64,000 nucleotides of DNA from Fibrobacter sp. UWB4 (GTDB lineage: Bacteria > Fibrobacterota > Fibrobacteria > Fibrobacterales > Fibrobacteraceae), in the NCBI RefSeq assembly GCF_002210345.1, contig NZ_MWQI01000004.1, positions 62,001-126,000 on the forward strand, written 5' to 3'. Both the position numbers and the translations under genes were made by a program. This document shows, in pieces, positions 27,815 to 55,275 of the stretch. Positions within the stretch are counted from its first letter, which is position 1; the number at the start of each line of letters is the position of its first letter. A model generated the notes under the pieces. The model made no database searches, was not told the origin of the DNA, and was given only the letters and a program-made list of their open reading frames with translations.

Positions 27815-27831
27815 AGCGAAAAGTTATCCTT

Positions 27832-27904
27832 GTCTAATTGGATTGTTTTAAAACTCTTTAGAGTAGAAGAATTGTAGGTGCTTAATTTATTTTTACTCGT
27901 CCAT
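27832..27904 (+). promoter_or_regulatory. Control element of TonB receptor B, shared with tonB
   Basis: The segment from GTCTAATTGGA to CGTCCAT aligns along its length with 55190-55262 before tonB. Shared blocks are GTCTAATYGGA, TTTAGAGTAGAA, and TAATTTATTTTT ending in CGTCCAT. It must hold the promoter and a common regulator site. TAGAAG/TAGAAT after TTTAGAG may be the -10. Confidence 0.55.
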
Positions 27905-27926
27905 GTTGGAATTGGGACTTTCGAAA

Positions 27927-31540: not shown

Positions 31541-34500
31541 CTAATAGATGAGAGTTATGAATTCCCTGATGCTCTTTGCTTGGAGAATCTGGTCGATGCT
31601 TACGGTCTTCTTGAGGTCTAGTGCAATCTTATCGACGAGTTTCATCAAGGTGATGGAATCACCACCGATAGAATAGAAGTCATCGTCAAGCGTGATGCCC
31701 GGATTCTCGAAAACGCTTTGCCAGAGTTCAAGCATTGCTTTTTCTTCATCGGAGATGTTCTCGTTTGCGGTTGCGCTTGTTGCATTTTGTGCGACCGCTG
31801 CAATGGGCGCTTCCGGAATCGGGAGCTGCTTCTTGTCAACCTTGCCGTTTGCAGAAAGCGGGAAGGATTCCATCGTGACGATTCTTGAAGGAATCATATA
31901 ACCCGTGAGCGTTTTGGATATTTCGCTCTTGAGCGTTGCTTCTGCATTTTCGATATTGGCGCCGAGAACATAGGCGATGATTTGCTTGCCGCTCCCTGGG
32001 ACATCCTTGAGTGCTGCGACGGCTCGTGTGACGAGTCCCGTGTGCATCAATGCGGCTTCGATTTCACCGAGTTCAATGCGGAATCCGTTGAGCTTGATTT
32101 GCGTATCGGAACGCCCGAGGAACTCGATGTAACCTTCGGTCTTGAGCTTGCCCAAGTCTCCGGTGCGGTAGATGCGGCCAAGTTTCGGATGGTTGATGAA
32201 TGCCTTGCTTGTCTTTTCGGGATCGTTGTTGTAGCCTTTGGCAAGACCCACGCCACCAATGTAGAGGTCGCCCTGGACTTCTGGCGGGCAGGGCTTCAAG
32301 TCAGCGTTGAGCACGTAGAATGTCTGGTTCTTCATCGGGTAGCCGTAAGGTACGCAGTCCCATTCCGGGCGTACTTCGCTGAATGGGTAGATGATGGACC
32401 AGATGGCCGCTTCGGTCGCGCCGCCGAGACTGATGAGGTCTGCCTTGCAGCCTGCATTCTTTGATGTTGTGCAAATGTCAAGCGGGATGCGGTCGCCCGA
32501 AAGGAGGACCTTGCGGAGCGAAAGATTCCTTGAATCGTTTGCAGAAATGCGGTGTTTCATCGCCATGTCGAAAAGCACGGGGACAGAATTCCAGACGGTC
32601 ACGTTCTGTGTACTGAGAACTTCGCAGACTTCGCGCATGTCGCGCGCGTCGCTCACTAAAGCGAGCTTTGCGCCGCTGCTGAGAGCGCCGAATATGTCGT
32701 ACACGGAAAGGTCGAAGCAAATCGAAGAAATGCCGATGAGCGCGTCGTTTTCGTTGAGGGCGAGTCGTTCGTTGACATCGATAATCGTATTTGCGGTCGC
32801 CCCGTGCTGCATGATGACGCCCTTGGGCTTGCCTGTGCTACCGGATGTGTAGATGATGTAGGCTTCGTCTTTGGGCGTGTTGATTGCCGGAAGTGCTTTG
32901 TTGCTGTAGCTTAAGATTCCCTTGGATTCGAGATAGGACTTTTTCAGCAGGAATTTGCAGTTGCCATCTTGCATGATGAAGTCTACGCGTTCTTTTGGGT
33001 ACGAAACATCGATTGGAACGTAGACGCCGCCTGCCTTGAGAATGCCGAGAATGCTTGCGATTGTTTCCGGGATGCGCTCGCCGAGAACGGCAACGCGGTC
33101 ACCGCGAATGACTCCGTTATCGTGGAGGTAATTGGCGATGCGGTTCGAAAGAATGTCGAGTTCCGCGTAGGTAAACGCTGAATCTTTCCCGACAACGGCC
33201 GTGCGGTCCTTGAAGTTCTGCATGGCGTTATTGACAAGCCCATGCAGCGTTTTTACAGGAGTTGCACCGACAGCGGGGTTGTAGTTATTCCATACGTTCT
33301 TGAGTTCCGGGAAATGGAGCTTGTTTTCGCCGTTGGCGATGTAACGGATGTTTTCGACAAAGTCCTTGAAAATCTGGTCGATGATTTCAGGCTCGAAAAT
33401 TTCCTTGACGACATCCCAGGTCACATAGAGCTTTTTGCCCATTTCTCCAATTTGGTTGTCAATGAAAATTTGCGGAGTCTGCGAAATGGAATAGCGCAAC
33501 TTGCCAAGAACTTCATAGTAGTTTTCTGGCGCGTCAAACAAGACGCAGGTGAAGACCACGGGCAAAATGGCCTTGCCGAACTGGTTCCTTGATTTGGCGA
33601 GTTCACGCATGATTTCGGTGCCGTCGTAAGACAAGTGCTCAAGACCGTCCATGATGCGCGTCTGCACGTCGGAAGCCTGTTTCCACAAGTCGTTTTCGTT
33701 CATCGAAAGTGCGAGTGGCAAGAGCTTCGTAAAGTCACCGATGATTTTTTCGACGTCCTTGTGGAACGGCTTGCGCTCGAATGCGGTCAGGTTCAGCACC
33801 ATGTCTTGCTGGTTGCTCCAGCGTTCAAGAACCTTGGCGTAGATGGTGCAAAGCAGTGCTGACGGCGAAATGCGATGCTCTTTGGCGACCTTCTTGAAGT
33901 TGCTCCAGGTCTTTTTGCAGATAACATCTTGCTTTCGTACGATTGTGTATTCGGTGCAATCCGAAACTTTTTGCGCAAGCGGCACATGCGGGTATTCGGG
34001 GAATGTCGGCAATCGTTCCATCCAATACGCCTTATCTTCTTCATAGCGCTTTTCATCGCGAGAACGGGAAAGGTCGCGGACGTAGCGCTCGTAGGAGTAG
34101 CCGATGCGTTCTTCGAACGGCTGCTTGCGCAAAATGCGTCCCAGATCCGAGAAGAAAATCTGCATGCTGTCGCCGTCGCAAACCATCAAGTCGAAACTCA
34201 CGAAAACGGTGCGGGTATCTTCGCCGTAATCGACGGCCTTGAAGGTGAATAGTGGCCATTCGTCGTGCTTGTATATGTGGTGCGAAAGATCGTTCCTGAT
34301 TTTGAGTGTCTCGGTTTCACGTTCTGCCGAGGTGCATTTCACGACTTCCATCTTGTAATCGGGAACGTCGGTGAGAACCTTCTGCGTACCGTTGGGGAGG
34401 AAGATTGCGCGGAATGCGTCGTGCTTTTTTACGACTTTGCGGATGGCGTTTTCGATTTCGGGAACAGTGTATTGCGATTCGATTTCGAAGTAATAATGCG

Positions 34501-37500: not shown

Positions 37501-37906
37501 CTTCGTGCTTTTCGATGAGCTTACGAATGCAATCTTCGGCTTTGTCAATGTCTAGAGCGTGTTCTACTTCAAAATAAAAATGAGTAGAATTAACAGAACC
37601 ATGGAAATTCTGCTCACGCCCTAGACGGTAGGACTGCTGCATTGGCGTCAAGGGGATTTTTTTTTCGACATCGGCTCCTTTGCCGAGTTTTTCCTGGATT
37701 TTATCCACCAAGTCACCGATTGTTTCTGCTTTAACCAAATCTAGCATGCCGAATTCGATTCCGAAAGTTTCCTTGGCTTCGCCCAAAAATCGGAACATCT
37801 GGATGGAATCTTCAAAGACTTCATACAGCGAGGTTTCTCTGGAAATTTTTTGATTTAAAAACTTTTCAATAGAATCGTATATTTCTTGTGATGTAAACTG
37901 AGACAT
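31541..37906 (-). CDS. NRPS: ACP-Cy-A(Cys)-PCP-Cy-A(Cys)-PCP
   Basis: The 2121-residue synthetase opens with a carrier domain whose pantetheine serine is S34 (FEDSIQMF). There is no adenylation domain for it, so a separate ligase must load it. Cy1 (about 84-515) has ELMFVDGLS at 211-219, with Glu for the first Asp of D-x4-D-x2-S. A1 (540-1000) has D705 L706 Y709 N746 L772 S774 L798 I806 W807 K987, the cysteine code DLYNLSLIWK. PCP1 serine is S1049. Cy2 has the full DLMVCDGDS at 1239-1247. A2 again reads DLYN-LS-L-IW. PCP2 serine is S2084. There is no TE, so the chain passes to another protein. It condenses and cyclises two cysteines onto the starter, giving two thiazolines. It is the last gene of the operon. 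Confidence 0.9.
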   Translation of the reverse strand: MSQFTSQEIYDSIEKFLNQKISRETSLYEVFEDSIQMFRFLGEAKETFGIEFGMLDLVKAETIGDLVDKIQEKLGKGADVEKKIPLTPMQQSYRLGREQNFHGSVNSTHFYFEVEHALDIDKAEDCIRKLIEKHEALRAFVEDENQCILAKDISKNFKIVREAVAESDLKQHLDQKRLRAQTEMRDLGKWPLFDITNITTEKRSIAAVDLELMFVDGLSTQGLASEFLSLYHEGVLPSFDFESNPQYVEWIKSRKDSAKHDRDAEFWHSLEADIPAAPKFPVISANDNEANICNRVQKIFSKETLRKMEITARKNGVTSSVVLFYLYLKTLARFSESGDFSVNITMLNRPYGIEGMDHIIGDYTSNVIFDFSAKSLDGLNVRDTLQRVRDRMYERIDHSAYEGVEVIRDLIRQKQIDKDNPMPIVFTSMLFGKLPEPQGLQVNYIQSQTSQVSIDNQISKTHDGGLLISWDYLEKIFPKDFIAEMFQFYSESIEEFAASADFASPAINVEKRVEAYNSTAKTFSIEHPIAYLQRSFAKFRDNIALQDGVMTTMTYAELEDSVRKAMFMLKIQGVTCGDSVAILSQKNFSTVITILATMGLGATYIPVDAKWPEDRKDYIVKNSNCKLLVEPQKLVESPTRERADFAPNPDLNATAYVIYTSGSTGVPKGVLISYAAMMNTIIDINERMGVNENSTILGLSSYCFDLSVYDIFGTLIAGGKLDIAKDIRETDEIRKFMDSSKNILWNSVPAGMELFIDSLDDSYTNSELKSVLLSGDWISVSLPERIRKHFPNAQIYSLGGATEASIWSIYFPIVQVDPSWQSIPYGYPLANQTIYVLNESLEICPPEVQGEIYIGGVGVAQGYANSEEKTKAAFIDHPKFGRIYKTGDFGRFSTNGYVVFLGRKDSQVKVGGYRIELGEIEQRMNAIASVDSAIIVLDTNKKIVAFYTGTQQDKEWFKNELSQFLPAYMIPHRFIHLDAMPLSSNGKLDRKTLMQNLSAGTTATANAAETKAAVVLTETQSVIIDIWKSVLELKEIDCSLDFFELGGDSIKAQRIAQRIDQKYGIRVPFVSVLNAQNARDFAESVEDMIVPKSAADALSATDSGESGKGREFPMTGVQLAYLNGRNEHFELGKYNAHYYFEIESQYTVPEIENAIRKVVKKHDAFRAIFLPNGTQKVLTDVPDYKMEVVKCTSAERETETLKIRNDLSHHIYKHDEWPLFTFKAVDYGEDTRTVFVSFDLMVCDGDSMQIFFSDLGRILRKQPFEERIGYSYERYVRDLSRSRDEKRYEEDKAYWMERLPTFPEYPHVPLAQKVSDCTEYTIVRKQDVICKKTWSNFKKVAKEHRISPSALLCTIYAKVLERWSNQQDMVLNLTAFERKPFHKDVEKIIGDFTKLLPLALSMNENDLWKQASDVQTRIMDGLEHLSYDGTEIMRELAKSRNQFGKAILPVVFTCVLFDAPENYYEVLGKLRYSISQTPQIFIDNQIGEMGKKLYVTWDVVKEIFEPEIIDQIFKDFVENIRYIANGENKLHFPELKNVWNNYNPAVGATPVKTLHGLVNNAMQNFKDRTAVVGKDSAFTYAELDILSNRIANYLHDNGVIRGDRVAVLGERIPETIASILGILKAGGVYVPIDVSYPKERVDFIMQDGNCKFLLKKSYLESKGILSYSNKALPAINTPKDEAYIIYTSGSTGKPKGVIMQHGATANTIIDVNERLALNENDALIGISSICFDLSVYDIFGALSSGAKLALVSDARDMREVCEVLSTQNVTVWNSVPVLFDMAMKHRISANDSRNLSLRKVLLSGDRIPLDICTTSKNAGCKADLISLGGATEAAIWSIIYPFSEVRPEWDCVPYGYPMKNQTFYVLNADLKPCPPEVQGDLYIGGVGLAKGYNNDPEKTSKAFINHPKLGRIYRTGDLGKLKTEGYIEFLGRSDTQIKLNGFRIELGEIEAALMHTGLVTRAVAALKDVPGSGKQIIAYVLGANIENAEATLKSEISKTLTGYMIPSRIVTMESFPLSANGKVDKKQLPIPEAPIAAVAQNATSATANENISDEEKAMLELWQSVFENPGITLDDDFYSIGGDSITLMKLVDKIALDLKKTVSIDQILQAKSIREFITLIY

Positions 37907-37915
37907 GTAAACTCC

Positions 37916-39535
37916 TTAAATTTTCCCGTTTTTATAAGCTTCAAGAGTCTTTTGCTTTGCAATTTTTCCAAGGGCGGTTCGGATAAACTGCTTGATGGGA
38001 ATGACTTCCTTTAATGAAAATCCCATTTCCGAAAAGACGAAGTTCTTTATTTTTTGAATCGGTATTTCGTCCGTGTTTGCTGTTTCTATGAACAGGTAGA
38101 CTGCGTTTTCACCCGTCTGAGAATTGTTTTCGCCGCAGGCCGCAACTCGATAGCTGAATTTTTTCTCAACAACTTGTTCAATGTCGCGAAGGTAGACGTT
38201 TTTGCCATGGATAAAGAACATGTCTTTTTTTCTGCCGACGACATAAAGCATGTCCATGTACAGAAATCCCAAATCTCCTGTATCAAACCAGCCATCGACA
38301 AAAAGACCTGAAGAATCGAGGTTTAAGTAGCCAGAAAATAATGCTTCGCTTTTAATATGGATTTCTCCAATGGTCAATTCTTCAAGTCGATGGTTTTCGC
38401 TGTCGAAAATGCCAATTTCCATACCGGGAATTGCAAATCCCTGGCTGATCAAATCCATGTCGCCACGCTTGATCGTGGTCAAGTCAAAGTCAATTCCTGA
38501 TTTCAGCTGGTTTAAGTCGATTTCTGGATAGCAGGCTTTTATGTTCAGGCAGACGCCGCCCAAGGCTTCTGTCAAGCCGTATACAGGGGCTATGGCTTTT
38601 TTCTTCAATTTGAACTTTTCAGTAGTCTTTTCGAAGACTTCTACAACTTTACGCGATAAGGGCTCACCACCGTTAAGGATGAAGTCGATGCAGGACAAAT
38701 CCCAGTTCTCGGAACCGTCAAGGGCTTTTAAAATCATGGGGTAGGCAAAATTGGGCGCCGCGCTCTTGTTTGCTCTTGTCTGGTGGATCGCATCAAGCCA
38801 GGATTTAGGATTTTGAATAAAGTCGCCTGCATCCATGTGGACTACATTTGACTTGGAGTACATTGGAAGTACAACGCCGGCGAGAATTCCAAAGACGTGT
38901 TCGAGAGGGAGCCAGATCAACCATTTGTCTTTTTCTGATAACGAAAGCGCAATTTCAAGGCTCTTGATCATCTTCAAGAAGCTTTCGTTTTGCATCACGA
39001 CACCCTTCGGGTCAGATGTGCTGCCTGAAGAGTAAAGAATCAGGACGTTGTCCGAGGGCTTTACATCGGCATAAGCGATATCGGATTCTGCTGTTTTAAA
39101 ATCATCCTGATTTTCTTCGTGAGTGATGATGAGGCGCTTCTCGTCAATGTCTTCCCATAGGAACTTGATAAATTGCAGAGTCTCATCGTCGGCGACAATG
39201 AATGATTTTGGATTACTTTGTGCTACATTTTTTAAACGATGGACCTGGTCGCGGTTTCGCGATGCTGTCAGAAAAGCGGGGACGGCTCCTAGTGAAACTA
39301 GAGCGAAAAAGTTGGAAAGGAACGCCTTTTTTGCAGAGCTGTTAATCTGGAAAATTACGATATCTCCCTGCTTTACGCCTGCATTTAAAAAAGCGTTTCG
39401 TGCTCTGATGATGCCCTGCTTTAGATCGCCTTTTGAAAATAAGGTATATTTTTCACTTTTGATGAGCGTGATTTTAGAGTTATTATCTTCGAGATATTCT
39501 TTCAGTTTTTGATTAAGCGAGGGCAAGTTTTGCAT
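37916..39535 (-). CDS. Fatty-acyl-AMP-ligase-like loading enzyme
   Basis: The 539-residue ANL enzyme has A3 LYSSGSTSDPKG at 168-178, VYGLTEALGG, DGWFDTGDLG and GRKKDMFFIHGKNVYLRDIE. The segment APNFAY (260-265) and the IHGKNVYLRDIE wording are typical of fatty-acyl-AMP ligases that feed carrier proteins. The aryl-acid ligases (DhbE, YbtE) instead read HNYPL/NFPL. It should activate a carboxylic acid, probably an acyl chain, and transfer it to the free N-terminal ACP of the neighbouring NRPS. The frame overlaps the PPTase gene by 23 bases. An unusual aryl substrate remains possible. Confidence 0.8.
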   Translation of the reverse strand: MQNLPSLNQKLKEYLEDNNSKITLIKSEKYTLFSKGDLKQGIIRARNAFLNAGVKQGDIVIFQINSSAKKAFLSNFFALVSLGAVPAFLTASRNRDQVHRLKNVAQSNPKSFIVADDETLQFIKFLWEDIDEKRLIITHEENQDDFKTAESDIAYADVKPSDNVLILYSSGSTSDPKGVVMQNESFLKMIKSLEIALSLSEKDKWLIWLPLEHVFGILAGVVLPMYSKSNVVHMDAGDFIQNPKSWLDAIHQTRANKSAAPNFAYPMILKALDGSENWDLSCIDFILNGGEPLSRKVVEVFEKTTEKFKLKKKAIAPVYGLTEALGGVCLNIKACYPEIDLNQLKSGIDFDLTTIKRGDMDLISQGFAIPGMEIGIFDSENHRLEELTIGEIHIKSEALFSGYLNLDSSGLFVDGWFDTGDLGFLYMDMLYVVGRKKDMFFIHGKNVYLRDIEQVVEKKFSYRVAACGENNSQTGENAVYLFIETANTDEIPIQKIKNFVFSEMGFSLKEVIPIKQFIRTALGKIAKQKTLEAYKNGKI

Positions 39536-40190
39536 TGCGGGGTTCTCCTATTAAAAAGTCGAAAAGATCAATTTTGGTGAGGATGTTGACTGGCAAAAGT
39601 TCTGCACAGTAAGCGGTGATGACCGATTTCTCGCTATCGACAACCTGCATCTTGGCGTATCTGTAATCGAACAGGTTTTCATCGTAGTCCGAAAAATCAA
39701 GGCTTGCGATGTTGTTGTCGATTCCTGTGCCTGTGTATTTGAGGAAGCTCTCCTTCATCGACCAGAAACGGGCAAAAGTGCGTGCTTTGTCATTCGAGTT
39801 TTTTATGGCATGCTGTTCAGAGGGGTGCATTGCGCTTTTAATGCAATCGAGGTTGGCGGGGTCGATGTCTGCGATGTCAACGCCTACGGGTGAACTTGCG
39901 AGAGCGCAAACGACACCTTCGGTGGAGTGCGATAAGCTGAATTGCAGTTCCGGCATTCCCTTAATAAACGGCTTTCCGTAAGGGCCGAATTCAAATTCGA
40001 CTTTTTCGTCAATGCCTTTTTCTTGGATTAAAGCGTAACGCAAGAGGATGTATGCCAATGCCGAAAGCTTGCGATCCTTGAAATAACGGTACTTGTCAAC
40101 TCGCTTGGCTCGCTGTTCGCTTAGCAATGGCCATAATCCGGCCAAGTCTAGTTCCGTAAAAGATTCTGTTCCTGTGAAAATGTATAGCAT
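39513..40190 (-). CDS. Sfp-type 4'-phosphopantetheinyl transferase
   Basis: The 225-residue enzyme attaches the phosphopantetheine arm from CoA to the carrier domains of this cluster. The metal/CoA motifs are present: FSLSHSTEGVVCAL, VGVDIADID and FARFWSMKESFLKYTGTG (W-x-x-K-E-x-x-x-K). A further basic start region (RAKRVDKYRYFKDRKLSALA) is typical of the Sfp/EntD group. The ATG follows the stop of the Cy gene without a gap. Placement inside the operon fits a dedicated activator. Confidence 0.92.
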   Translation of the reverse strand: MLYIFTGTESFTELDLAGLWPLLSEQRAKRVDKYRYFKDRKLSALAYILLRYALIQEKGIDEKVEFEFGPYGKPFIKGMPELQFSLSHSTEGVVCALASSPVGVDIADIDPANLDCIKSAMHPSEQHAIKNSNDKARTFARFWSMKESFLKYTGTGIDNNIASLDFSDYDENLFDYRYAKMQVVDSEKSVITAYCAELLPVNILTKIDLFDFLIGEPRNAKLALA

Positions 40191-41636
40191 TTACAAAACC
40201 TCGTCCCATTTTTCAGTGAGCAGTCTTTTGAGTAAACCGACGTTTGATGCAAACATTTCTTTCAGAGTCTCTGGAGCAAATGCGGGTTCTGCGTAATCCC
40301 AGTTGACAGAAAGCCTACCGTCAAAATTGGTGACCTGATAATCCAACACAACTTGCGGAGTCTTGCTCAGTGCGTAAATCTGGTGCAGTCCGGCGGGCAT
40401 GTCGCTGTTGGACTTCTGGCCGTTTTCGAGTACGCATGTAATCACGATGGGCATTTGTGCGCGCATCGGCGAAAGGCCTTCCTTGAACTTGAGAATCTTC
40501 GTGCCGTCGTAAGTGTGGAAACGCACGAGTTGCCACATGTCCTTTTGAACACTTTGTACGCACTCCAAGAAATTTTTGCATTTCTTGGAAAGCGTGATGA
40601 AAGCGATGTTCGTGAAATCTCCGACGACCGAATTGATGTCCTTGTGGAGCGGCAAACGGTTGAATATGGTGGAGTTGATGGTGAGCGAATCGTTCTTGCT
40701 GAATCCGAGAAGCGTTTTTAGATAGGCTGTGCTGATGACTGCCGCTGGTGTCGTGCGGTATTCTCGGCATCTCTGCTGGAACAGTGCAAATTCCTCAACA
40801 GACAGTTCTCCAGAAATTCTTGAAAAGCGGTGATTGTGGATCTCAGAAAGCGGCTTTGCGTACGGCAAGTCGGGCTCGCATACCAATTCATTGATTTTAG
40901 ATTTCCAGAAAGCTTCGGCTTGCGAATAATCTTGCTGACTATCGAATTTGATCAAGTCGCTGCAATAATCTTTGAATCCGTAATCGATCCATTGCACGAT
41001 TTCGCCGCAGTAGAGCTTGAACATTTGCGAAAGTGCGATCTTTGCGCTCCAGGCGTCCATGATCATGCAGTCGAAATCGAAGTGCAAAACATCCTTGGAG
41101 TTTGGAACGCGTGAAATGCGCATTGTAAAGAAGGGCCATTGATTTAACGGGTAAATGTTGTGGCTCCATTCCTTGCGCTTTTCAAGACGCTGTTCCGCAT
41201 TCTCCAATTCTACGATTTCAATGGAATATTTTGGTGCGGCATCAAGAACGCGCTGCGTTCCTTTTGCAGAAATTACAAGGCGAAGCGCATCGTCATGCGC
41301 GATAACTTCGTTCCATGCGTTTTCTAGCCGTGGAATGTCAATCGTTTCGTCGATTTCCAATTCCATGTAGTAATGCGTATTGATGCCGCCGAGATCGTAG
41401 ACGGGATCTCGGCCGACTAAATACGATTTTTGAATGGGCGAGAGCGGGAATGCGTTTGATTCTTCTGCGGCTATTTTTTCGAGATGCGCGACGATTCCGG
41501 CCTTGTTGGCCTTTAAACATTCCTTGTCTTCGGCGCTGAGCGCTCCGTTTGCGGCACGGAACTTAAGCTTGCCTTCGTCAAGCCAAAGCGTTACGCCCCG
41601 GCTTGCAAATTCGCTAATAAGATGTGAAATATCCAT
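40191..41636 (-). CDS. Free-standing heterocyclisation (Cy) protein with TubC-type docking domain
   Basis: The 481-residue protein has an N-terminal segment of about 55 residues (GVTLWLDEGKLKFRAANGAL, LKANKAGIVAHLEKI) that matches TubC_N beta-hairpin docking domains. A complete Cy domain follows, with the catalytic DCMIMDAWS at 189-197 (canonical D-x4-D-x2-S). No adenylation or carrier domain is attached. It should pair with the A-MT-PCP protein at 48056 to make one split module that forms and cyclises an X-Cys bond. It starts six bases behind the Cy-A-PCP-TE gene, which has a similar docking domain. A free-standing Cy is uncommon in thiazoline siderophore lines. Confidence 0.85.
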   Translation of the reverse strand: MDISHLISEFASRGVTLWLDEGKLKFRAANGALSAEDKECLKANKAGIVAHLEKIAAEESNAFPLSPIQKSYLVGRDPVYDLGGINTHYYMELEIDETIDIPRLENAWNEVIAHDDALRLVISAKGTQRVLDAAPKYSIEIVELENAEQRLEKRKEWSHNIYPLNQWPFFTMRISRVPNSKDVLHFDFDCMIMDAWSAKIALSQMFKLYCGEIVQWIDYGFKDYCSDLIKFDSQQDYSQAEAFWKSKINELVCEPDLPYAKPLSEIHNHRFSRISGELSVEEFALFQQRCREYRTTPAAVISTAYLKTLLGFSKNDSLTINSTIFNRLPLHKDINSVVGDFTNIAFITLSKKCKNFLECVQSVQKDMWQLVRFHTYDGTKILKFKEGLSPMRAQMPIVITCVLENGQKSNSDMPAGLHQIYALSKTPQVVLDYQVTNFDGRLSVNWDYAEPAFAPETLKEMFASNVGLLKRLLTEKWDEVL

Positions 41637-41642
41637 GCCGCA

Positions 41643-44600
41643 TTACCTCGCGAGATTCTTGTAGTTGAGTTTATCTGCGACAACCTTGACGTATTCAGGA
41701 TTCGAGAGACAGGTCAAGTGGTTTCCTGGAATGGGCGATACTTCCAATTCACCGAGGCAAAGCTCGTCCCAGTCGTGGTAGAGAATGTCGAAGTAGCGGT
41801 AGATGCCGTCGTCGTTGTGGGCCTTGAAGTACCTCAAGTTTCCGAACAATGGCGCAGGCGTAAAGTCCGTCATGACGTTGAATCCCTGGTTGAACATGCG
41901 CACAAGTCTTTCAAATGTGCTTCTTTCGGCATTTTCGCCAAACGCATTCGTGTACTTGATGCATAAATCCAGTTTTTCGTCATCGGACATGTGCATGAAA
42001 TCGACAAGCTTATCGCCAGAAGTGAGTTCCTTGGACAAGAGTTCGACATCCTTGTCCGTGATGATCTTCTTGTTGGTCGAGTCCATCATCTTGTTGAACT
42101 TGACAACGAAATCTTCAATGTCGAGTCCCCATTTGTTAAAGTCAACGCCGATCATTTCTGCAAAGAAGATGTCGCGAACGGCATTTGTCCTGCATTGGAA
42201 TCCGAGACGGCTTCCGTCAATGATGCCAAAATCGACGATTTCGATGCCTTTGTCGATAAGGCGTTCTGCCATTTCGATGCCGACGGGGCTTATGTAGCAG
42301 TAGGTGATGATTTGGACTTTCTTGTAATTTGTCGCAAGAGCTGCTTCCGCAAATTTTTTGGCGAGAGTCGGGCCGACTTCCTTTGGCTTCAGCTTGCAGA
42401 ATTCTTCAAGGTCGTTCAAACCGAAGGAAAGAATTTCGCCCAAATCTTGCTGGATGAGCTGTTCCACAAGAATGTTGAACTTGTCAGCGTTCCAGAAAAT
42501 GGCGGGCAGCAAAACGCGTAGGCAATCGTTGCTTGGTTTTCCGTAACGGATGACCTTGAGCATTTCGATTTTTTCAGAAGTTCCATCCTTTGGCTTTTCA
42601 GTCAGGAACTTGACGGTGTCCTTTACGGTGGGTTCGTCAAGCATCTGCTTCAAAAGTGCATCGAACGGAACCTTCGAAGCGATCCCGTTTCGGAGCGTTG
42701 TGGCAACTTGCGCCATGGTCAGGGAATCTGCGCCAAAGTCGTAGAAGTTGGAATCCAATCCCAAATTATCCGATTTGAGAGCCTTGGACCAAATTTCCAG
42801 AATTTCTTTTTCGAGCGGAGTCGTTGGAACGCTTGAATCTGTAGTGCTGTTCTTGGCTGCATTTTCCTTGTCTGCAACGAAAAATTCGACGATCTTTTTA
42901 CGATCGATTTTCCCGTTGGCGGACAAAGGCAAGTGTTCTACCGGCGTGATGATGGACGGAATCATGTAATGCAACAGGAACTTGTCCAAGTATGCTTTTA
43001 ACGATTCTTCGGAATATCCGGCCAAGGTTTCAATCATGGCGTAGATTTCCTTGTGGTCCGGGGCGACAACGACTGCGGCGTTGTTTATGAATTCATAGTC
43101 GCGCAGGACATTTTCAATTTCGCCAAGCTCGATGCGGTGACCGCGAATCTTGACCTGATTGTCTTTGCGGCCTTGGAACTCGATTTCGCCACCAGGGAGA
43201 TAACGACCCATGTCGCCGGTCAAATAGACGTGTTCACCAGTGCTTGGAAGGTCTACAAACTGTGCTGCAGTGCGTTCTTCATCGAGGTAGTAGCCGAGAG
43301 CCACGCCATCGCCGCCAAGCGCGATTTGCCCGGTGACCATTGTCGGGCACGGTTCAAGATTTTCGTCCAGAATATGCATGGTCTGGTTCGCGAGCGGGCG
43401 GCCGTACGGCAAAATCTTGAGACCGTCATCTGGATGGTAACGGTGGTAATTGGACCAAATCGATGCTTCTGTTGCGCCGCCGAGACAGATGACATCTACG
43501 TTGGGCGCGAACTTGCGGATCTTTTCGGGCATGTCTACAGGAATCCAGTCGCCAGAAAGGAATACTTCCTTGAACGGGAGCGGTTCTGCAGAACTCTTGC
43601 TTTCTACAAAGTTGAGGAGCATCTTCATCAATGCCGGTACAGTATTCCATACCGTGATGTGATGCTTGTGGATCAAGGTTTCCCAGGCTTCGGGGTTCAT
43701 GTAATCTTCGGCTGTCGGGAATATGACGGTTCCGCCGTGAGCGAGAACGCCGAAAATGTCATAGACGGAAAGGTCGAAGTTGAGCTGCGAAAGTCCAAGA
43801 ACGGCATCGTCGGCAGTGACTTTGAAACGGTCGTTCATGTCGTCGATGGTGTTCATGGCTCCTTTATGCGTAATGACAACGCCCTTCGGCTCGCCGGTGC
43901 TTCCGCTTGTGTAAATGATGTAGGCGATGTCTTCGGGAATGCGCTTCGGGAATGTCGTTGTATCGATGGTTGTGGCATCATTGCTGAGCGTGTCAACATT
44001 TATTGTCGTAAGCTTGTTTTCAAGGAGTGCTTCGTCTGTAGAAATGCCAATGGCAACTTTTGCACCTGTCTTCTTGACGATCTTTTCGGCACGTCCCTTG
44101 GCCTTGGCGGCTGCGATGGGAACGTAAATGGCTCCAGCGTAAAGAATGCCAAAAACAGAAACGATTTGCCATGATGACTTTTCCATCAGCACGGGGACGC
44201 AATCTTGTGGCTTTACGCCGAGCTTGATCAGCTTGCTTGCAAGAACTTTGGCACGTGCATCAAGTTCTTCAAATGTGAATTTTACATGGCCGTCGTCAAT
44301 GGCGATTTTTTTCGGAGTGCGTTTGACGCTTTCGATAAAGTCGTCTTGCAGCAAACGGACATTCCATTTTTTCTTCGTATCGTTTGCTTCAAAGCGCTCG
44401 GCGGCATCGCGTGTCGGGAGCGCAATTTCTGCAATGTTTTCCCAGTCTGCGTTTTCATTTGCCAATGCGAGCAAGCGCTTTTCAAAGGCGTCAAACATGG
44501 CTTCGAGTACGCCTGCGGGGAATACACCTTCGCGGTAATCCCAGTTGACCTGTAAGCCAAAGGCTCCGTCCATCACCTGACAGTCGATGAATGTCTGCGG

Positions 44601-45911
44601 AGTCTGCGATATGCCGCCGGAAAATTCACCGCGCAGAGGCGTTCCTGAATCGGCAAGGCCAATCGCGCTCGTGTAGACAATTGGCATCGAAAGACTAGAT
44701 TTTTTGCTTTGCCTTGAAATTTCGCGCATGACCTCGACGCCGCTGAAAAGTCGATTGTCCAAGTCTTCGAATAGACGTGCATTGAGTCTGCGTGTGCGAA
44801 CGAGGAAGTTCTCGCGCTTGGATAAATCGACTTCTAACAGGCTGAGCGATGTGAAGTCGCCGACAATGTCCATGACTTTTTCGTGAAGCGGGAGTCGGTT
44901 CAGAACGGTCATGTTGATGCAAAAACGCTTGCTTTGGCTCCATTTTGCCAAAACATCTGCATAGCACGAAAGTATGGGAACGGTTGGCGTGAGACCGTAT
45001 TGCTTTGCGCGCGCCTTCATGCGGTTCCAGGCGTCTGCCGGAATGCGCAGGAATTTTCTACCGAAAGAATCTTTGGATTCGTTTGCCGGAAGTTTCGGAA
45101 GTTCTGGAGCTTCGGGCAATTCCGCAATGCGGTTCATCCAATAGCTCTTTTCTTTTTCGTATCGAGCACTAGACTTGATTTTCTTTTCTGCAATCAGGTA
45201 GTCGCGGAAAGAAACTTCTTCTTCGCCCGAGACGGCGATTCCGTCAAAATAGGCGGCTTCAAATTCGGCAACGAGTTTCCAGATGCTTGTCCAGTCCGCA
45301 AGCAGGAACTCGATAGAGAAATGAAGGATGGCCCCTTCTGCGCTTCGGCTAACGGCAAGTCCGAACATGGGCCATTTGCCGATGGTGTAGGCGCGGCAGC
45401 CCATTTCCTTGCGGAAATTTTCAAAAGCGGTAGCGTTTTCCGGATGCTTTACCAAATCCCATTCAGGGATTTCTAGAGTCGGGATTTCCTTGAGTACCTG
45501 CTGGAATCCGCCTTCGTTAATGACGGCGTGCAGCATGTCGTACTTTGCGACAAGGGCGTTCCAGATGTCCCTAACTTTTTGAGTGTCCAGTTCCTGGTAC
45601 TTTATTTCGAGATACACGTGGCATGCAACACCGCCGTATTCGAAAGTCTTGCTGCGGCCAAGCATGTAGGCAGACTGTACGTCCGTTAACGGGAACGGTT
45701 CGTAACGGTGTGTACGGTCGATGACGAATGTATTTTCGTTTGCGCTCTTGTTCAGCTGTTCAATGATTTCGGCCTTGTGCGCTTTCAGTTGACTTAAGAC
45801 TTCTGCGGTCATCAATTCTTTAGAAGCCTTGTAGCGTAACTTTTCTCCATCCATAAAAAGATGGATGCCTTTTTTTTCAAAGGATTCAATGAGGGCTTCG
45901 ATGTTGTTCAT
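41643..45911 (-). CDS. NRPS: docking-Cy-A(Cys)-PCP-TE, with Cys in the TE nucleophile position
   Basis: The 1422-residue protein starts with a TubC-type docking segment (GIHLFMDGEKLRYKAS, LKAHKAEIIEQL). Cy reads EFLLADWTS at 201-209, again with Glu for the first Asp. The A domain carries the cysteine-type code (FDLSVYDIF, VWNTVPA, VFLSGDW, CLGGATEASIW). PCP serine is S1063 (FGADSLTM). A C-terminal alpha/beta thioesterase domain follows; its nucleophile elbow ITYCYISPVGIEMAERL aligns with G-Y-S-F-G-G, putting Cys1205 at the serine position, with His1398 in PIPGNHLTCL. It is the only TE-bearing NRPS, so it is the likely end of the line and releases the product. Its ATG overlaps the reductase stop by one base on the reading side. 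Confidence 0.88.
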   Translation of the reverse strand: MNNIEALIESFEKKGIHLFMDGEKLRYKASKELMTAEVLSQLKAHKAEIIEQLNKSANENTFVIDRTHRYEPFPLTDVQSAYMLGRSKTFEYGGVACHVYLEIKYQELDTQKVRDIWNALVAKYDMLHAVINEGGFQQVLKEIPTLEIPEWDLVKHPENATAFENFRKEMGCRAYTIGKWPMFGLAVSRSAEGAILHFSIEFLLADWTSIWKLVAEFEAAYFDGIAVSGEEEVSFRDYLIAEKKIKSSARYEKEKSYWMNRIAELPEAPELPKLPANESKDSFGRKFLRIPADAWNRMKARAKQYGLTPTVPILSCYADVLAKWSQSKRFCINMTVLNRLPLHEKVMDIVGDFTSLSLLEVDLSKRENFLVRTRRLNARLFEDLDNRLFSGVEVMREISRQSKKSSLSMPIVYTSAIGLADSGTPLRGEFSGGISQTPQTFIDCQVMDGAFGLQVNWDYREGVFPAGVLEAMFDAFEKRLLALANENADWENIAEIALPTRDAAERFEANDTKKKWNVRLLQDDFIESVKRTPKKIAIDDGHVKFTFEELDARAKVLASKLIKLGVKPQDCVPVLMEKSSWQIVSVFGILYAGAIYVPIAAAKAKGRAEKIVKKTGAKVAIGISTDEALLENKLTTINVDTLSNDATTIDTTTFPKRIPEDIAYIIYTSGSTGEPKGVVITHKGAMNTIDDMNDRFKVTADDAVLGLSQLNFDLSVYDIFGVLAHGGTVIFPTAEDYMNPEAWETLIHKHHITVWNTVPALMKMLLNFVESKSSAEPLPFKEVFLSGDWIPVDMPEKIRKFAPNVDVICLGGATEASIWSNYHRYHPDDGLKILPYGRPLANQTMHILDENLEPCPTMVTGQIALGGDGVALGYYLDEERTAAQFVDLPSTGEHVYLTGDMGRYLPGGEIEFQGRKDNQVKIRGHRIELGEIENVLRDYEFINNAAVVVAPDHKEIYAMIETLAGYSEESLKAYLDKFLLHYMIPSIITPVEHLPLSANGKIDRKKIVEFFVADKENAAKNSTTDSSVPTTPLEKEILEIWSKALKSDNLGLDSNFYDFGADSLTMAQVATTLRNGIASKVPFDALLKQMLDEPTVKDTVKFLTEKPKDGTSEKIEMLKVIRYGKPSNDCLRVLLPAIFWNADKFNILVEQLIQQDLGEILSFGLNDLEEFCKLKPKEVGPTLAKKFAEAALATNYKKVQIITYCYISPVGIEMAERLIDKGIEIVDFGIIDGSRLGFQCRTNAVRDIFFAEMIGVDFNKWGLDIEDFVVKFNKMMDSTNKKIITDKDVELLSKELTSGDKLVDFMHMSDDEKLDLCIKYTNAFGENAERSTFERLVRMFNQGFNVMTDFTPAPLFGNLRYFKAHNDDGIYRYFDILYHDWDELCLGELEVSPIPGNHLTCLSNPEYVKVVADKLNYKNLAR

Positions 45912-46984
45912 TATACACTCTCCCCGCTAAATTTTTTGATGTCGTTAGACGGAATGTAATGATGACCGTCCGGGTGGATGATTTTTGCAAAGCTGAAGGC
46001 GCTTGTGAGTTCGTTCCATTTTTTGGAAACTTGAATCTGCCGTTGTGCCAGTGGCGCTAAATCAACATGGTTGTCGATCATTGATTCCAGCTCCAAGATG
46101 TTGTCTGCGATTCCCAGCTTCCAGTCTCCGAAAAGCGCCTGGTCAAAGTGCTTTGGACTGTAATTGCCTAGCGGTTCGATTGTATTTTCAAGAATATAGG
46201 CCGGCATGTTCTTTTGGTTTTCGGGATTGTATAATGACTTTGGAATATGCATTCGCGGTTTCCATAAAACAGGGCCGAATGTATCTTCAAGAATGAGGCG
46301 GCCTGATTCATAGACGAATGCGAAATTGTGCAACAGGTGCTCGTAATTGTCGCGGTCTTCCGGGAAAACCTGGTTGTTGTATTCCAGCATGATTGGAATG
46401 TCGTCCAGTTTTCCAGTCAAGATGTCGAAGGGACCAACAGCATCGGCAACGCTATCTACGACAAACGAAAAAATGGAGGGCAATGCGTGCGAAAGAATGT
46501 CGATTGCAGGGTAGGAAACCTGCGGGCAGAAAGCTCCCTTGATGTAAAGCGGCAATTCTTTCTTGTTCAGTTCATTTGCAATGCGGATAAATCGCGATAC
46601 TTCGGAAAGCTTTGGGTAAAGATCGCAGACTTTGTAATAAACATTGTTGCGTTTGGCGGCTCTAAAGCAGAGCGAAACATCTTTCAAATGGATCGGCTGT
46701 TCCTGAATGACGTTTACGCCTTTGTCCATAAAACGGATGGCGAGGTCCGTGCCGATGCCGCCAATTGTACCTGAGCTGATGACGACGCATGCAATGTCAA
46801 CTTGAGGAATCTGGTCAAATTCGGTAATCAGCGGAATGCCGTATGTGTCGGCACATTTTTTTGAGCGTTCGCTACCTTTACCATATAAGCCTACAAGTTC
46901 AAATCGTTCGGGCATGCTTTGAAGCGCGTGGATGTAAAACTGCCCAAAAGTGCTTCCGCACACGATGACTTTTTTTCGTTGCAT
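45911..46984 (-). CDS. Thiazolinyl imine reductase (Irp3/PchG family)
   Basis: The 357-residue cytoplasmic enzyme has an N-terminal Rossmann region (KVIVCGSTFGQFYIHAL, VGLYGKGSERSKKCADTYGI) and the Gfo/Idh-like second domain of thiazolinyl imine reductases. In yersiniabactin and pyochelin synthesis these reduce one carrier-bound thiazoline to thiazolidine with NADPH. ATG 46984 is chosen: it lies two bases after the previous stop and behind AAGGAGAAATTT; the longer frame to 47011 overlaps the upstream gene. Its stop overlaps the next NRPS start (TAATG). Its presence is strong evidence that the product holds thiazoline rings. Confidence 0.92.
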   Translation of the reverse strand: MQRKKVIVCGSTFGQFYIHALQSMPERFELVGLYGKGSERSKKCADTYGIPLITEFDQIPQVDIACVVISSGTIGGIGTDLAIRFMDKGVNVIQEQPIHLKDVSLCFRAAKRNNVYYKVCDLYPKLSEVSRFIRIANELNKKELPLYIKGAFCPQVSYPAIDILSHALPSIFSFVVDSVADAVGPFDILTGKLDDIPIMLEYNNQVFPEDRDNYEHLLHNFAFVYESGRLILEDTFGPVLWKPRMHIPKSLYNPENQKNMPAYILENTIEPLGNYSPKHFDQALFGDWKLGIADNILELESMIDNHVDLAPLAQRQIQVSKKWNELTSAFSFAKIIHPDGHHYIPSNDIKKFSGESV

Positions 46985-46985
46985 T

Positions 46986-48059
46986 TTAAATTTCTCCTTC
47001 AATTTCATCACTCACGTTCTTTGTTACGCATGAAAAGGATTTTATGTTGCTTAGCTTGTTGATGATGTCGTTGCTTAAGTCCGTTTCGCCCAGAAGAAAT
47101 TCTTGATGGGGGAGTCCTTTTTCTAGGACCGTTATGACCGTAGCGCCGGCTACAGAACCTGTTAACTGCGAAGGCGCAAGTCCCGAAATGATCAATTGCT
47201 TTTGACATTCGGTCCCGTTTGCGGTTCCGTCAATGTTGCAAACGAAAATGGTGTTTTCGCTTTTTCCGAAGCAGTCAAGCTGGGTTGAACGGCAAATTTC
47301 TTCGATTGTCTTTTCTGGATTTTGCTTGTATTGCAATCTTGCAGAATCCAAGGTCCTTAAAGTGCGTTCGCCGCCAAGGCACATCTGGAAACGGGCTTCC
47401 TTGAATCCGGTTTTCTTAACGACAGCAGCGGATTCTTCATCAAAGTAGGGGAACGATTTGAATGCTCCGAGAAAACTTTCCAGGACATCCGTCGGGCTTG
47501 TTGGTGTCGGCGTGAATGGTTGCAATTCACCGTCTTTCCAATAGCTCATGGAATGGTTGGTGCTCTCGAAAATCCCTTCCATGTAATCACGGGCGGCCGT
47601 GTACGAGAAGGAACCGATCCCGCCGTAATAGAAATCGCACTTTTCGACAGAGTCGAAATGTTGTGCTAAGTATTGCGGGATGAGTCCAGAAAGCCCGGGA
47701 ATGCTCCCTGCACCGTAAATGATGGAAGTGTTGGTTTTTCCCTTGCGGTAACCGACGATTCCCAAGTGGACGATAGGAACGTTTGCAACGGAGGCGATGT
47801 CGTCCATTTGCAAGGCGTCTTTTTCAGAAATCTTTGTGCAGTCCAGGATGCAATCGCATCCGGTTATGAATTGCCCAATGCTTTCCTTGTCGGACACATC
47901 GACTTTTACCCAGTCTGCGTCTGCAAATTCTTCACGAATTTCAGGAGCGACTTTGTCGATATTGCGCCCGCCAATGCGGAGTTTTTGCGAACTCTTGGCT
48001 TTGATGAATCTCGTGGCCCAAATTCCGATGTTTCCGTATGCACCGAGGATGCCTATCAT
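46986..48059 (-). CDS. Saccharopine-dehydrogenase-like NAD(P) oxidoreductase
   Basis: The 357-residue protein begins with a dinucleotide fold (MIGILGAYGNIGIWATRFI, LRIGGRN, then DCILDCTKISEKDAL and VPIVHLGIVGYRKGK). It continues in the style of saccharopine dehydrogenase NADP-binding family members (YGAGSIPGLSGLIPQYLA). Its start overlaps the preceding NRPS stop (ATGA). No such gene is part of the yersiniabactin or pyochelin core, so a second redox tailoring step (ring oxidation or reduction, or a carbonyl or imine reduction) is likely. The substrate cannot be inferred further. Confidence 0.75.
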   Translation of the reverse strand: MIGILGAYGNIGIWATRFIKAKSSQKLRIGGRNIDKVAPEIREEFADADWVKVDVSDKESIGQFITGCDCILDCTKISEKDALQMDDIASVANVPIVHLGIVGYRKGKTNTSIIYGAGSIPGLSGLIPQYLAQHFDSVEKCDFYYGGIGSFSYTAARDYMEGIFESTNHSMSYWKDGELQPFTPTPTSPTDVLESFLGAFKSFPYFDEESAAVVKKTGFKEARFQMCLGGERTLRTLDSARLQYKQNPEKTIEEICRSTQLDCFGKSENTIFVCNIDGTANGTECQKQLIISGLAPSQLTGSVAGATVITVLEKGLPHQEFLLGETDLSNDIINKLSNIKSFSCVTKNVSDEIEGEI

Positions 48060-50782
48060 ATTTCTCCTTCTTCGATATCGCCAAGAGCGTTGATGCGTTC
48101 TTCGAAAATAAGGGCGAGGTCGTGCAATTCCGCATTCTCGAAAAACTCGCGGAGTGAAATTTCGACACCGAACTGCGTGTGGATTTTTTCGATGAATCGC
48201 GTGGCCAGGAGGCTGTCTCCACCGATTTCAAAGAAGTTGGCGTAACGGTCGATTTTTTCAAGTGAAAGTAGCGACTTCCAGATGCTTGCGATTTCTCCTT
48301 CGCGTCCTTCGTAGTTCTCGTTTACATCGACGGTAATTGTCTTTTTCAAATACGCGGTAATGGTTTTGCGGTCCACCTTGGCATTAGCCGTGAGCGGGAA
48401 CTTGACGAACACTTCTGTTCTGGACGGAATCATGTACGGAACGAGATTCGTCTTCAGATATTCATCAAATTCGCTACCGAGAATTTCCTTGGCGTTTGTA
48501 GATTTTTGAGCAATAATTGTTTGTACGAAGTGCGAATTGTTTTCAAGCGAAATGGTTTCGAAAGGCAGTTCCTTGAAAATGGATTCCCATTCTTCATCTG
48601 TCAAGAGCGATGTGAAACGGCGCAAGCGCGTGTACTTGGCAAAGCCGCTTTCTAGAACGGCGGAACTTACAATGGCAACCGGGTCGAAATTCTCGAAATC
48701 GAGAGCCATGAACTTTCCGCCTTTTTTGAGAATCATGTAGGCGAAGGAGATGGCGTCGGCGGGGTTGTTGTATGTGTGCAAGAAACCTGCGTCAATGACG
48801 AGATCGTAAGAATCCAATTCCTGTACACAGGCGCTGAGGTCCAGTTGCTTGAATCTAAGACTATCTTTCCAGTTGTGCAATGTGTCACGGGCTTCGTCAA
48901 GCATGCCTGTGGATTCGTCAAACAACGTAACTTCCATCCCGTTCTTTTCGTAGGAATTCAGGAATTCTCGTACGCCAAGCCCGGAACGCGCATTTAGGAA
49001 TGCAATTTTCTTGATGTCGTTAGCGGCTGCAAGCGTAACGGCCTTGCCGATGAAGGCTTTGAACGGAGCGCTTTCGCAAAGCAGTTTTTCTGGAGCGAAA
49101 AATTTGTTGTTTAAAAGGTCCGTTTCCGGGCGGTTGCCGAGAAGTACGTTTTTCAGCAGTTCGACATTTTCGGCACAGTTCAATCCTTTTGAAAAATCAG
49201 AGTCTACACTCGGACGGATATTTTCAAAGCCGTTCTTGAAAAGCCAATTGTTCCACAGTGCAAACGCGTTCTTTGATTTCTCCGGGATGGTCTTGACGCT
49301 GGAACGTATATCGTGAATCAGTGCTGCGACAGCGTTGGTGCGCTCTGGCAAATTGTCGTCTTCGTATTTCTCTACAAAATTGTAATCGTATTTGGCAATC
49401 TTTTCTTTATTCAGTGCTGGAATTACCGCTGCGACAATTTCCTTTTTGGCTCCGTTTTCAACGACGACTGCGGCGGCGTTGACGATGCTTGATTTTTTCT
49501 TGATGACGTTTTCGATTTCACCGAGTTCGATGCGAAAACCGCCGAGCTTGATTTGCGTGTCGAGACGGCCCAGGAATTCAGAATTTCCGTCGGGCATCAT
49601 GCGGACCTTGTCGCCAGTTCTGTACCAGCGTTCTCCATTTTCAATAGGGAAGCGCTCCTGTGTCAAATCCGGCTGGTTCAAGTAGCCTTCGGCAACGCCG
49701 ATGCCGCCAATCCAAAGTTCACCCGCTTCACCTGTCGGGCATTCTTGCCCTTTTTCGTCCATGACCTTGATTTTCTGGTTCAGTAGCGCCTTGCCGTAAG
49801 GAATGGATTTCCATTCTGGATCCAATCCGTTGACTTCATACCAGACAGACCAAATGGAAGCTTCTGTCGCGCCGCCGAGCGAAATGAAATTGCTGTTCGG
49901 CCAAAGCTTCTTTGTCGTGCCGAATAGCGGGAGAGGAATCCAGTCGCCTGAAAGCATCACGGTTTTTAGCGGGATTGTGCTTGCCTTGTCGCCTGCGACA
50001 ATCGTGAACATTTCAAAAAGTGCCGGGACGGAATTCCACAAAGTCACTTTTTGATCGCTTGCAATCTGTTTCCAGATGTTCGCTTCTTTCTTAGTTTCTT
50101 CAGAGAGGACGATGACCTTTCCGCCCAAGGAAAGCATGCCGAAAATGTCATAAACGGAAAGATCAAAGTCCAATTCCGAAATTGCCATGCAGGCGTCATT
50201 GGCTGTTAAATTGAAACGTTCGTTGATGTCGCGGATGGTGTTGCTTGCGCCACGATGCGAAATCATCACGCCTTTCGGGACGCCAGTTGTGCCGGAAGTG
50301 AAAATGATGTAGGCGAGGAGAGACGGGTCTTCGACAATTTCGTCCTTGCTCATCGGGGCGTTTTGCAAAGCTTCATTGACGACGATGACCTTCCAGGCTG
50401 AATTTTCCTTGCGAATTTGTTCTGCGTGTGCTTCATCGGTGATGATTGCAGAAATCTTTGCGGCATCAAAAATCTTGTGCATCCTTTCCATCGGCTGGTG
50501 TATGCCTACAGGGACGTATGCTGCGCCGACCGCCTGAATCCCGAGCGTACAGAAAATCTGGTTCATTCCCTTCGGGAGGACGATGGCAACGAGGTCTTTT
50601 GCTTTGACCTCGGCTTTTTTCAACGTGGAAGCGATTTTCAACGCGCTTTCAGAAAGCTCGGCGTATGTTTTGTAATTGTAAGTGCCGTCTGCATTTCGCG
50701 ATACGAGTGCGGTCGCTGATGGCGTTTCAAAAGCTTTTGCAAAAACGGCAGAATGGATGCATTCAAGATTGTTTGTGAACAT
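48056..50782 (-). CDS. NRPS: A(Cys) with embedded methyltransferase/epimerase-like domain, PCP
   Basis: The 908-residue protein starts at ATG 50782 (MFTNNLECIH); the upstream frame overlaps the thioesterase gene. The A domain has D207 L208 Y211 N250 M276 S278 L302 I310 W311, the same DLYNMSLIWK code as the cysteine domain of HMWP2. Between A8 (KLGGFRIELGEIEN, about 413-425) and A10 (NAKVDRK, about 800) an insert of some 350 residues has the SAM-methyltransferase fold. Its motif I (IAFLNARSGLGVREFL, 593-608) lacks the usual G-x-G-x-G. The later part (DLVIDAGFLHTYNN, LKKGGKFMALDF) is normal. PchE and HMWP2 carry an epimerising domain at this place. PCP serine is S857. There is no Cy domain, so it needs the free Cy at 40191. 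Confidence 0.88.
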   Translation of the reverse strand: MFTNNLECIHSAVFAKAFETPSATALVSRNADGTYNYKTYAELSESALKIASTLKKAEVKAKDLVAIVLPKGMNQIFCTLGIQAVGAAYVPVGIHQPMERMHKIFDAAKISAIITDEAHAEQIRKENSAWKVIVVNEALQNAPMSKDEIVEDPSLLAYIIFTSGTTGVPKGVMISHRGASNTIRDINERFNLTANDACMAISELDFDLSVYDIFGMLSLGGKVIVLSEETKKEANIWKQIASDQKVTLWNSVPALFEMFTIVAGDKASTIPLKTVMLSGDWIPLPLFGTTKKLWPNSNFISLGGATEASIWSVWYEVNGLDPEWKSIPYGKALLNQKIKVMDEKGQECPTGEAGELWIGGIGVAEGYLNQPDLTQERFPIENGERWYRTGDKVRMMPDGNSEFLGRLDTQIKLGGFRIELGEIENVIKKKSSIVNAAAVVVENGAKKEIVAAVIPALNKEKIAKYDYNFVEKYEDDNLPERTNAVAALIHDIRSSVKTIPEKSKNAFALWNNWLFKNGFENIRPSVDSDFSKGLNCAENVELLKNVLLGNRPETDLLNNKFFAPEKLLCESAPFKAFIGKAVTLAAANDIKKIAFLNARSGLGVREFLNSYEKNGMEVTLFDESTGMLDEARDTLHNWKDSLRFKQLDLSACVQELDSYDLVIDAGFLHTYNNPADAISFAYMILKKGGKFMALDFENFDPVAIVSSAVLESGFAKYTRLRRFTSLLTDEEWESIFKELPFETISLENNSHFVQTIIAQKSTNAKEILGSEFDEYLKTNLVPYMIPSRTEVFVKFPLTANAKVDRKTITAYLKKTITVDVNENYEGREGEIASIWKSLLSLEKIDRYANFFEIGGDSLLATRFIEKIHTQFGVEISLREFFENAELHDLALIFEERINALGDIEEGEI

Positions 50783-55021: not shown

Positions 55022-55041
55022 GTTTGTGAAATTCCTGAAAA

Positions 55042-55262: not shown

Positions 55263-55275
55263 TAGTGTGGTTAAG

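Follow-up and report, generated by a model that had tools for sequence, protein, structure and literature searches.

The 64,000-nucleotide stretch of Fibrobacter sp. UWB4 DNA analysed here (the window) is part of a 236-kb contig in a 3.58-Mb genome of 99.99% completeness. Among named relatives, rumen Fibrobacter MAGs, mostly labelled F. succinogenes, stand closest to it. The window carries a minus-strand operon for a non-ribosomal peptide synthetase (NRPS), which runs from 55078 to 31541 and starts at its 5' end with a pair of ABC half-transporter genes (Table 1). These are followed by genes for a type II thioesterase, an A-(MT-like)-PCP protein, a Rossmann-type protein of 357 aa and a thiazolinyl imide reductase. 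The remainder of the operon encodes a TubC-Cy-A-PCP-TE protein, a standalone TubC-Cy protein, a phosphopantetheinyl transferase, an acyl-AMP ligase and an ACP-Cy-A-PCP-Cy-A-PCP protein. All genes from 31541 to 55078 are assigned, and none encodes a P450 or a separate methyltransferase.

Table 1. Genes and domains of the operon and its flanks, in window coordinates.
Feature	Position	Strand	Evidence
Second ABC half-transporter pair (18127-19995 and 19847-21610)	18127-21610	-	NCBIfam; retained in uptake-only relatives
Second receptor-linked protein	21789-22991	+	Related to 30152-31372; 31% between the two families in orthologues
TonB-dependent receptor 1	23050-25383	+	MxcH-type siderophore receptor model, below cut-off
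FeoB ferrous iron transporter	25617-27647	+	TIGR00437, 384 bits, over cut-off
TonB-dependent receptor 2	27903-30137	+	MxcH-type siderophore receptor model, below cut-off
Receptor-linked protein, weak DUF4374 similarity	30152-31372	+	PF14298, below gathering score
2121-aa NRPS, ACP-Cy1-A1(Cys)-PCP1-Cy2-A2(Cys)-PCP2	31541-37906	-	Pfam: 3 PP-binding, 2 Condensation, 2 AMP-binding; A codes; Cy residues
N-terminal ACP of 2121-aa protein, proposed starter-acid acceptor	37682-37885	-	PP-binding stretch; sliding identity
FAAL-type acyl-AMP ligase, predicted starter activation	37916-39535	-	NCBIfam best match below cut-off; solved relatives
4'-Phosphopantetheinyl transferase	39513-40190	-	PF01648; NCBIfam 4PPT matches below cut-off
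Standalone 481-aa TubC_N (beta-hairpin docking)-Cy protein	40191-41636	-	PF18563 and PF00668; Cy structures; active-site residues
1422-aa terminal NRPS, TubC_N-Cy-A(Cys)-PCP-TE	41643-45911	-	Pfam; C-terminus homologous to TE of type II relatives
Terminal thioesterase domain, Cys1205/Asp1232/His1398 (limits approximate)	41652-42569	-	Alignments; fold search with low-confidence model
Thiazolinyl imide reductase, Irp3/YbtU/PchG type	45911-47011	-	TIGR01761, 226 bits (cut-off 188.8); PF21390
357-aa saccharopine-dehydrogenase-like protein, C-tail EIEGEI	46986-48059	-	Carboxyspermidine dehydrogenase, E 7e-4; annotation of relatives
909-aa A(Cys)-inserted MT-like epimerase-PCP, without Cy, C-tail IEEGEI	48056-50782	-	Pfam; PchE match, His1204 kept
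Inserted epimerase-like domain of 909-aa protein (limits approximate)	48497-49354	-	7emy PchE, E 6.7e-11
Type II thioesterase	50788-51531	-	PF00975, 141 bits
ABC half-transporter	51549-53267	-	NCBIfam ABC families; exporters and IrtA importer both match
ABC half-transporter	53267-55078	-	NCBIfam ABC families
TonB	55267-55983	+	TIGR01352
ExbB/TolQ-type energiser	55983-56549	+	TIGR02796/TIGR02797, below cut-off
AraC-family regulator	61572-62546	+	PF12833

Four adenylation (A) domains are distributed over three proteins, two in the 2121-aa protein and one each in the 1422-aa and 909-aa proteins. Their codes, whose letters were taken at the GrsA positions as located through a sequence motif and alignment rather than a solved structure, are DLYNLSLIW twice in the 2121-aa protein, DLYNFSLIW in the 1422-aa protein and DLYNMSLIW in the 909-aa protein. 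An earlier, sequence-only reading of this DNA, which had assigned the cysteine code to all four domains, is thereby confirmed. The codes are unchanged in orthologous loci wherever read, and the Cys A domains of related clusters match them.

The same reading had counted four heterocyclisation (Cy) domains, and a whole-genome search agrees, since it finds no condensation-superfamily domains beyond the pair in the 2121-aa protein and the single ones in the 1422-aa and 481-aa proteins. All four are Cy rather than C domains, with BmdB-Cy2, HMWP2-Cy, EpoB-Cy and FmoA3 as best solved relatives. Each retains the Thr/Asp dyad, the helper Gln and the conserved Arg, together with (in HMWP2-Cy2 numbering) Y1505, R1509, D1625, N1751, T1753, R1757, D1770, T1830, T1856, Q1858, D1862 and Q1864; consequently, no Cy domain looks dead. 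The Cy motif reads DxxxxD in two of the four and ExxxxD in the other two, Cy1 of the 2121-aa protein and the single Cy of the 1422-aa protein, where D1620 is replaced by Glu and the gating F1755 by Leu. The first Asp of this motif has a structural role (PMC9547227). ExxxxD was considered as a mark of a dead Cy domain and dropped, because the dyad is intact, the Glu/Leu pair is conserved in seven of seven loci and ExxxxD also occurs in one of 13 aligned Cy domains of relatives. These two domains, with ExxxxD and Leu at the gating Phe, count against the metallophore model presented below, and their activity is predicted from the residues they keep. The carrier-protein serines are all present, and a phosphopantetheinyl transferase is at hand in the operon.

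The operon holds no PKS part, as had been claimed, but the claim passed over the acyl-AMP ligase and the ACP. The ligase gene adjoins the gene for the N-terminal ACP of the 2121-aa protein. Its best NCBIfam matches are fatty acyl-AMP ligases (FAALs), though far below cut-off, and its best solved relatives are 6ulx, 4r0m (McyG) and the FAAL 3pbk. No match to salicylate synthase (TIGR03494) over cut-off was found in the whole genome. The FAAL and the N-terminal ACP are the stretches most diverged from the near relative G001. The FAAL is only 58-59% identical to every other one, whereas the other operon proteins are 92-100% identical to those of G001; by sliding identity, the ACP is 65% identical to that of G001 over the first 60 residues, and 80-100% thereafter in the tabulated stretch. 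This pattern of divergence looks like the exchange of a starter cassette, and the starter of the window line is therefore predicted to differ from that of its relatives. Salicylate from an external source could still cap the product.

One-to-one pairing of Cy and A domains, another claim of the sequence-only reading, is correct as far as the equal counts go but holds only if the standalone Cy domain serves the A-PCP protein that lacks one. Two operon proteins, the 481-aa and 1422-aa proteins, start with a TubC_N domain (PF18563). Such beta-hairpin (TubC-type) domains bind tails of the Kj12B-like kind (PMC9113145), and the Kj12B docking peptide, for which binding has been demonstrated experimentally, ends in LRGEI (PMC6195595). 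Each of the five genomes that provide both proteins has the tail GDIEEGEI on the 909-aa protein and EIEGEI on the 357-aa dehydrogenase, and the latter tail is retained even where the dehydrogenase is only ~50% identical. Tails of the form G-x-[LI] occur in 12 of 235 ORFs in 16 sequences, a count in which orthologues are non-independent and from which the ORF filter dropped the Streptomyces dehydrogenase; every one of the 12 belongs to these systems, as a carrier-protein NRPS, a dehydrogenase or a FAAL, and the GKI ending of the FAALs may be a chance resemblance. In three of four relatives (Klebsiella, Streptomyces and Pantoea), the tail is present on both the upstream NRPS and the dehydrogenase, and in Clostridiaceae on the NRPS only. 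Docking tails on oxidases are known in general, and our literature search found no paper that ties a saccharopine-dehydrogenase-like protein to docking. Judging from its tail, the 357-aa dehydrogenase probably docks on a TubC domain, which provides a testable idea of its site of action. The 2121-aa protein has no docking tail that would account for its hand-over to the standalone Cy domain, which counts against the metallophore model.

The plain poly-thiazoline that the sequence-only reading had proposed does not agree with the tailoring genes. The thiazolinyl imide reductase scores over its curated cut-off, so that at least one thiazolidine ring is predicted, and the second dehydrogenase may act too. 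Both genes are conserved in all five genomes compared. Relatives of the 357-aa protein are annotated as saccharopine dehydrogenase NADP-binding; they are 20-29% identical to it, relatives of the reductase are 30-37% identical, and the two genes are adjacent in Klebsiella, Streptomyces and Pantoea. Across the distant relatives, the dehydrogenase gene adjoins that of the thioesterase and, in most, also that of the reductase. The AlphaFold model of the 357-aa protein (pLDDT 39) was set aside. In sorangibactin biosynthesis, the dehydrogenase is essential and its function is unknown (PMC10127202).

The domain inserted in the 909-aa protein matches the inserted epimerase of PchE and keeps its essential His1204; an equivalent of E1234 is not clearly retained. 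A methyltransferase role was considered for this domain and set aside, given that its SAM motif is degenerate, similar to that of PchE, and that its best match is the PchE epimerase. The C-terminal 310 residues of the 1422-aa protein have no Pfam match and align with the thioesterases (TEs) of relatives. The nucleophile motif is YCY in the window and G001 and YSF in the type II loci described below, with Ser at the catalytic position in all Fibrobacter loci read apart from the window and G001. Cys stands at the aligned position, as GYC or GHC, in five distant relatives, all plasmid-borne (Klebsiella, Clostridiaceae, Streptomyces, Pantoea and Anaerococcus), and is essential as the nucleophile of the terminal TE of sorangibactin (PMC10127202). 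The GxCxG glycines are lost in the window TE, which could be inactive. A fold search with its AlphaFold model (pLDDT 59) puts TE and alpha/beta hydrolase folds near the top, with weak scores.

The synthetase occurs in eight of 80 Fibrobacter species and has two architectures. Type I comprises the window and G001; type II comprises G074, G061, G076, L009 and L011, with L012 added by partial match. The type II terminal protein has ~2295 aa where complete and ends in a Ser TE; a scan of the L008 protein showed two methyltransferase stretches as well. Between the types, identity is 49-53% for the dehydrogenase, 66-67% for the reductase, 82-91% for the 909-aa protein and 84-90% for the standalone Cy protein. 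Joint action of the dehydrogenase and the reductase with the terminal module would account for their greater divergence.

In every locus long enough to show it, the operon is flanked by a block of two receptors with FeoB and by a TonB/ExbB/AraC block. These blocks are joined directly, with the operon absent, in two complete genomes (G068 and G070). In G018 (L038, L039), the two ABC genes of the operon and the receptors are kept and the whole biosynthetic block is cleanly absent, and the synthetase is likewise missing from G005, which has the same ABC gene and receptors. Among 12 sampled genomes with a close receptor 1, the synthetase is present in five and absent in seven, the latter including some incomplete MAGs. 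Receptor 1 is truncated in one producer, G001 (L005), where the match is limited to the C-terminal 155 residues. The promoters of TonB (55171-55250) and receptor 2 (27819-27903) have ~86 bp in common at 75% identity, a possible joint regulatory site. Genes for an MMPL-type transporter, a LolA-like protein and a DUF1302-like protein follow TonB/ExbB at 56939-61480 and are conserved with them in uptake-only genomes. The direction of transport by the ABC proteins could not be read from solved relatives, as exporters and the IrtA importer both match, and a search of solved structures with the DUF4374-like protein gave no useful match. None of the matches in our search of open-licence papers describes an NRPS siderophore from Fibrobacter.

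We consider it likely, with a probability of roughly 0.7, that the operon directs biosynthesis of a thiazoline-type metallophore, which would be assembled, reduced, released and taken up in the following steps. The FAAL would activate a carboxylic acid, probably not salicylate, and load it onto the ACP of the 2121-aa protein, whose two in-cis modules would each attach one cysteine and close it into a ring. Module 3 would be made up in trans of the standalone TubC-Cy protein and the A-E-PCP protein that lacks a Cy domain, with the inserted domain epimerising its ring. The 1422-aa protein would then add and cyclise the fourth cysteine, and its TE, using the Cys nucleophile, would free the chain. 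The thiazolinyl imide reductase is predicted to convert at least one thiazoline to a thiazolidine, and the saccharopine-dehydrogenase-like protein may reduce a second ring while docked on a TubC domain. The metal complex would be imported through the adjacent TonB/ExbB system, the two receptors and the ABC pumps. The product is probably an acyl chain with four Cys-derived rings, at least one of them reduced. Domains, codes, catalytic residues and conserved context are evident at the level of sequence comparison; from these we infer the order of steps, the starter, the number of rings in the product, its stereochemistry, its release, the metal and the docking. The operon encodes no phenolate, catechol or hydroxamate chelating group, so metal binding would fall to the ring nitrogens and the C-terminus, a point against the model. 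The cysteine modules of the sequence-only reading stand in this scheme, but that reading overlooked the parts on which the identity of the product depends: the FAAL-ACP starter, the splitting of one module, the epimerase insertion and the TE with its Cys nucleophile.

Departures from this scheme concern mainly the number of cysteines and the role of the compound. Because module 3 is split between two proteins and no docking tail links the 2121-aa protein to the standalone Cy, the latter might instead serve as a second Cy on a neighbouring ring, with one A-PCP unit skipped or supplying cysteine in trans, to give a product with three cysteines. Tandem-Cy lines exist, as in VibF, and this group is known to include lines that are not strictly colinear, such as that of mupirochelin. 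Such an outcome is improbable, however, given that all four Cy sites are complete, the A codes are kept wherever read and every PCP serine is present; moreover, the A-E-PCP protein would be left without a condensation partner if the standalone Cy served elsewhere. Quite unlikely, to a similar degree, is an antimicrobial or signalling role for the product, in which case the adjacent receptors would serve another siderophore. Mirabazole-type oligothiazolines are cytotoxins, the ABC half-transporters could export, and the receptor/FeoB locus occurs without the NRPS operon in other Fibrobacter genomes. Against this, wherever a locus was examined over its full length, the operon has the receptor block on one side and TonB on the other, its nearest relatives are siderophore-type clusters with receptors, and the promoters of TonB and receptor 2 have an element in common. 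An acyl tetra-thiazoline whose four rings all stay unreduced, released by hydrolysis as an acid, would suit four Cys modules with no PKS; it is very improbable in view of the reductase over its cut-off, the conservation of reductase and dehydrogenase in the genomes compared and the Cys thioesterase.

The metallophore reading can be extended, more speculatively, to a salicylate-free, all-Cys, four-ring metallophore of a rumen anaerobe with an exchangeable FAAL-ACP cassette, in which the tail-recruited dehydrogenase would be a second thiazoline reductase and the compound a public good. The last point would rest on related species in which the uptake locus is retained and the synthetase is missing. 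Fibrobacter ranks among the main degraders of fibre in the rumen, and the presence of producers and non-producing receptor holders in one genus offers a natural system for the study of shared metallophores there.

The nearest relatives of the window line are clusters of the coelibactin/sorangibactin type. Sorangibactin, coelibactin and mupirochelin clusters likewise combine Cys Cy-A-PCP lines with a thiazolinyl imide reductase, a saccharopine-dehydrogenase-like protein (PMC10127202, PMC10080011) and ABC and receptor genes, and the former two have a terminal TE with a Cys nucleophile. However, they start with salicylate, use Ser/Thr in the first module and have a P450 and trans methyltransferases, whereas the window line has a FAAL-type starter ligase, Cys in all four modules, one split module and an inserted epimerase. 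A coelibactin-like cluster with salicylate synthase, Cy NRPSs, dehydrogenase, reductase, Cys TE and receptors is also present on the K. pneumoniae plasmid pINF237_01-VP from human sputum (L046, CP032834.1), and a related Cys-Cy cluster with Cys TE and dehydrogenase on a Clostridiaceae plasmid of bovine origin (L047, CP026601.1). Yersiniabactin and pyochelin systems (HMWP1/2, PchE/F) resemble the window in the Cys code, Cy domains, Irp3/PchG-type reductase, PchE-like inserted epimerase and a nearby AraC regulator. In contrast to them, the window has no salicylate synthase or ligase and no PKS, but a FAAL starter, a Cys TE and four cysteines, compared with three in yersiniabactin and two in pyochelin. 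Because no salicylate starter was found, the window line is not classed with yersiniabactin, pyochelin or coelibactin/sorangibactin.

A line of four cyclised cysteines would exceed pyochelin and yersiniabactin in ring number, as the sequence-only reading noted, but it would not go further than all known systems. Mirabazoles are counted as a four-ring cysteine precedent. Together with tantazoles and thiangazole, they are oligothiazolines with tandem rings (PMC6017121), likened here by compound class rather than genes, and, unlike the predicted metallophore, cytotoxic. For mupirochelin, a chain of four residues is predicted (PMC10080011), and lusichelins are metallophores whose four Cys/Cy modules give four thiazol(in)e rings, although PKS modules lie between the rings and the start is salicylate (PMC12210259). 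NRPS-made thiazol(id)ine chelators are, according to the authors of an automated metallophore detection method, undetectable without many false positives (PMC12971057), and salicylate-free lines of this sort will therefore probably escape notice. Four-ring cysteine lines thus have precedent, and what is unusual here is that all four modules are Cys-specific, with no PKS and no salicylate genes. An all-Cys, salicylate-free and PKS-free line with a Cys thioesterase and a split module, in an anaerobe, is new in comparison with these systems.
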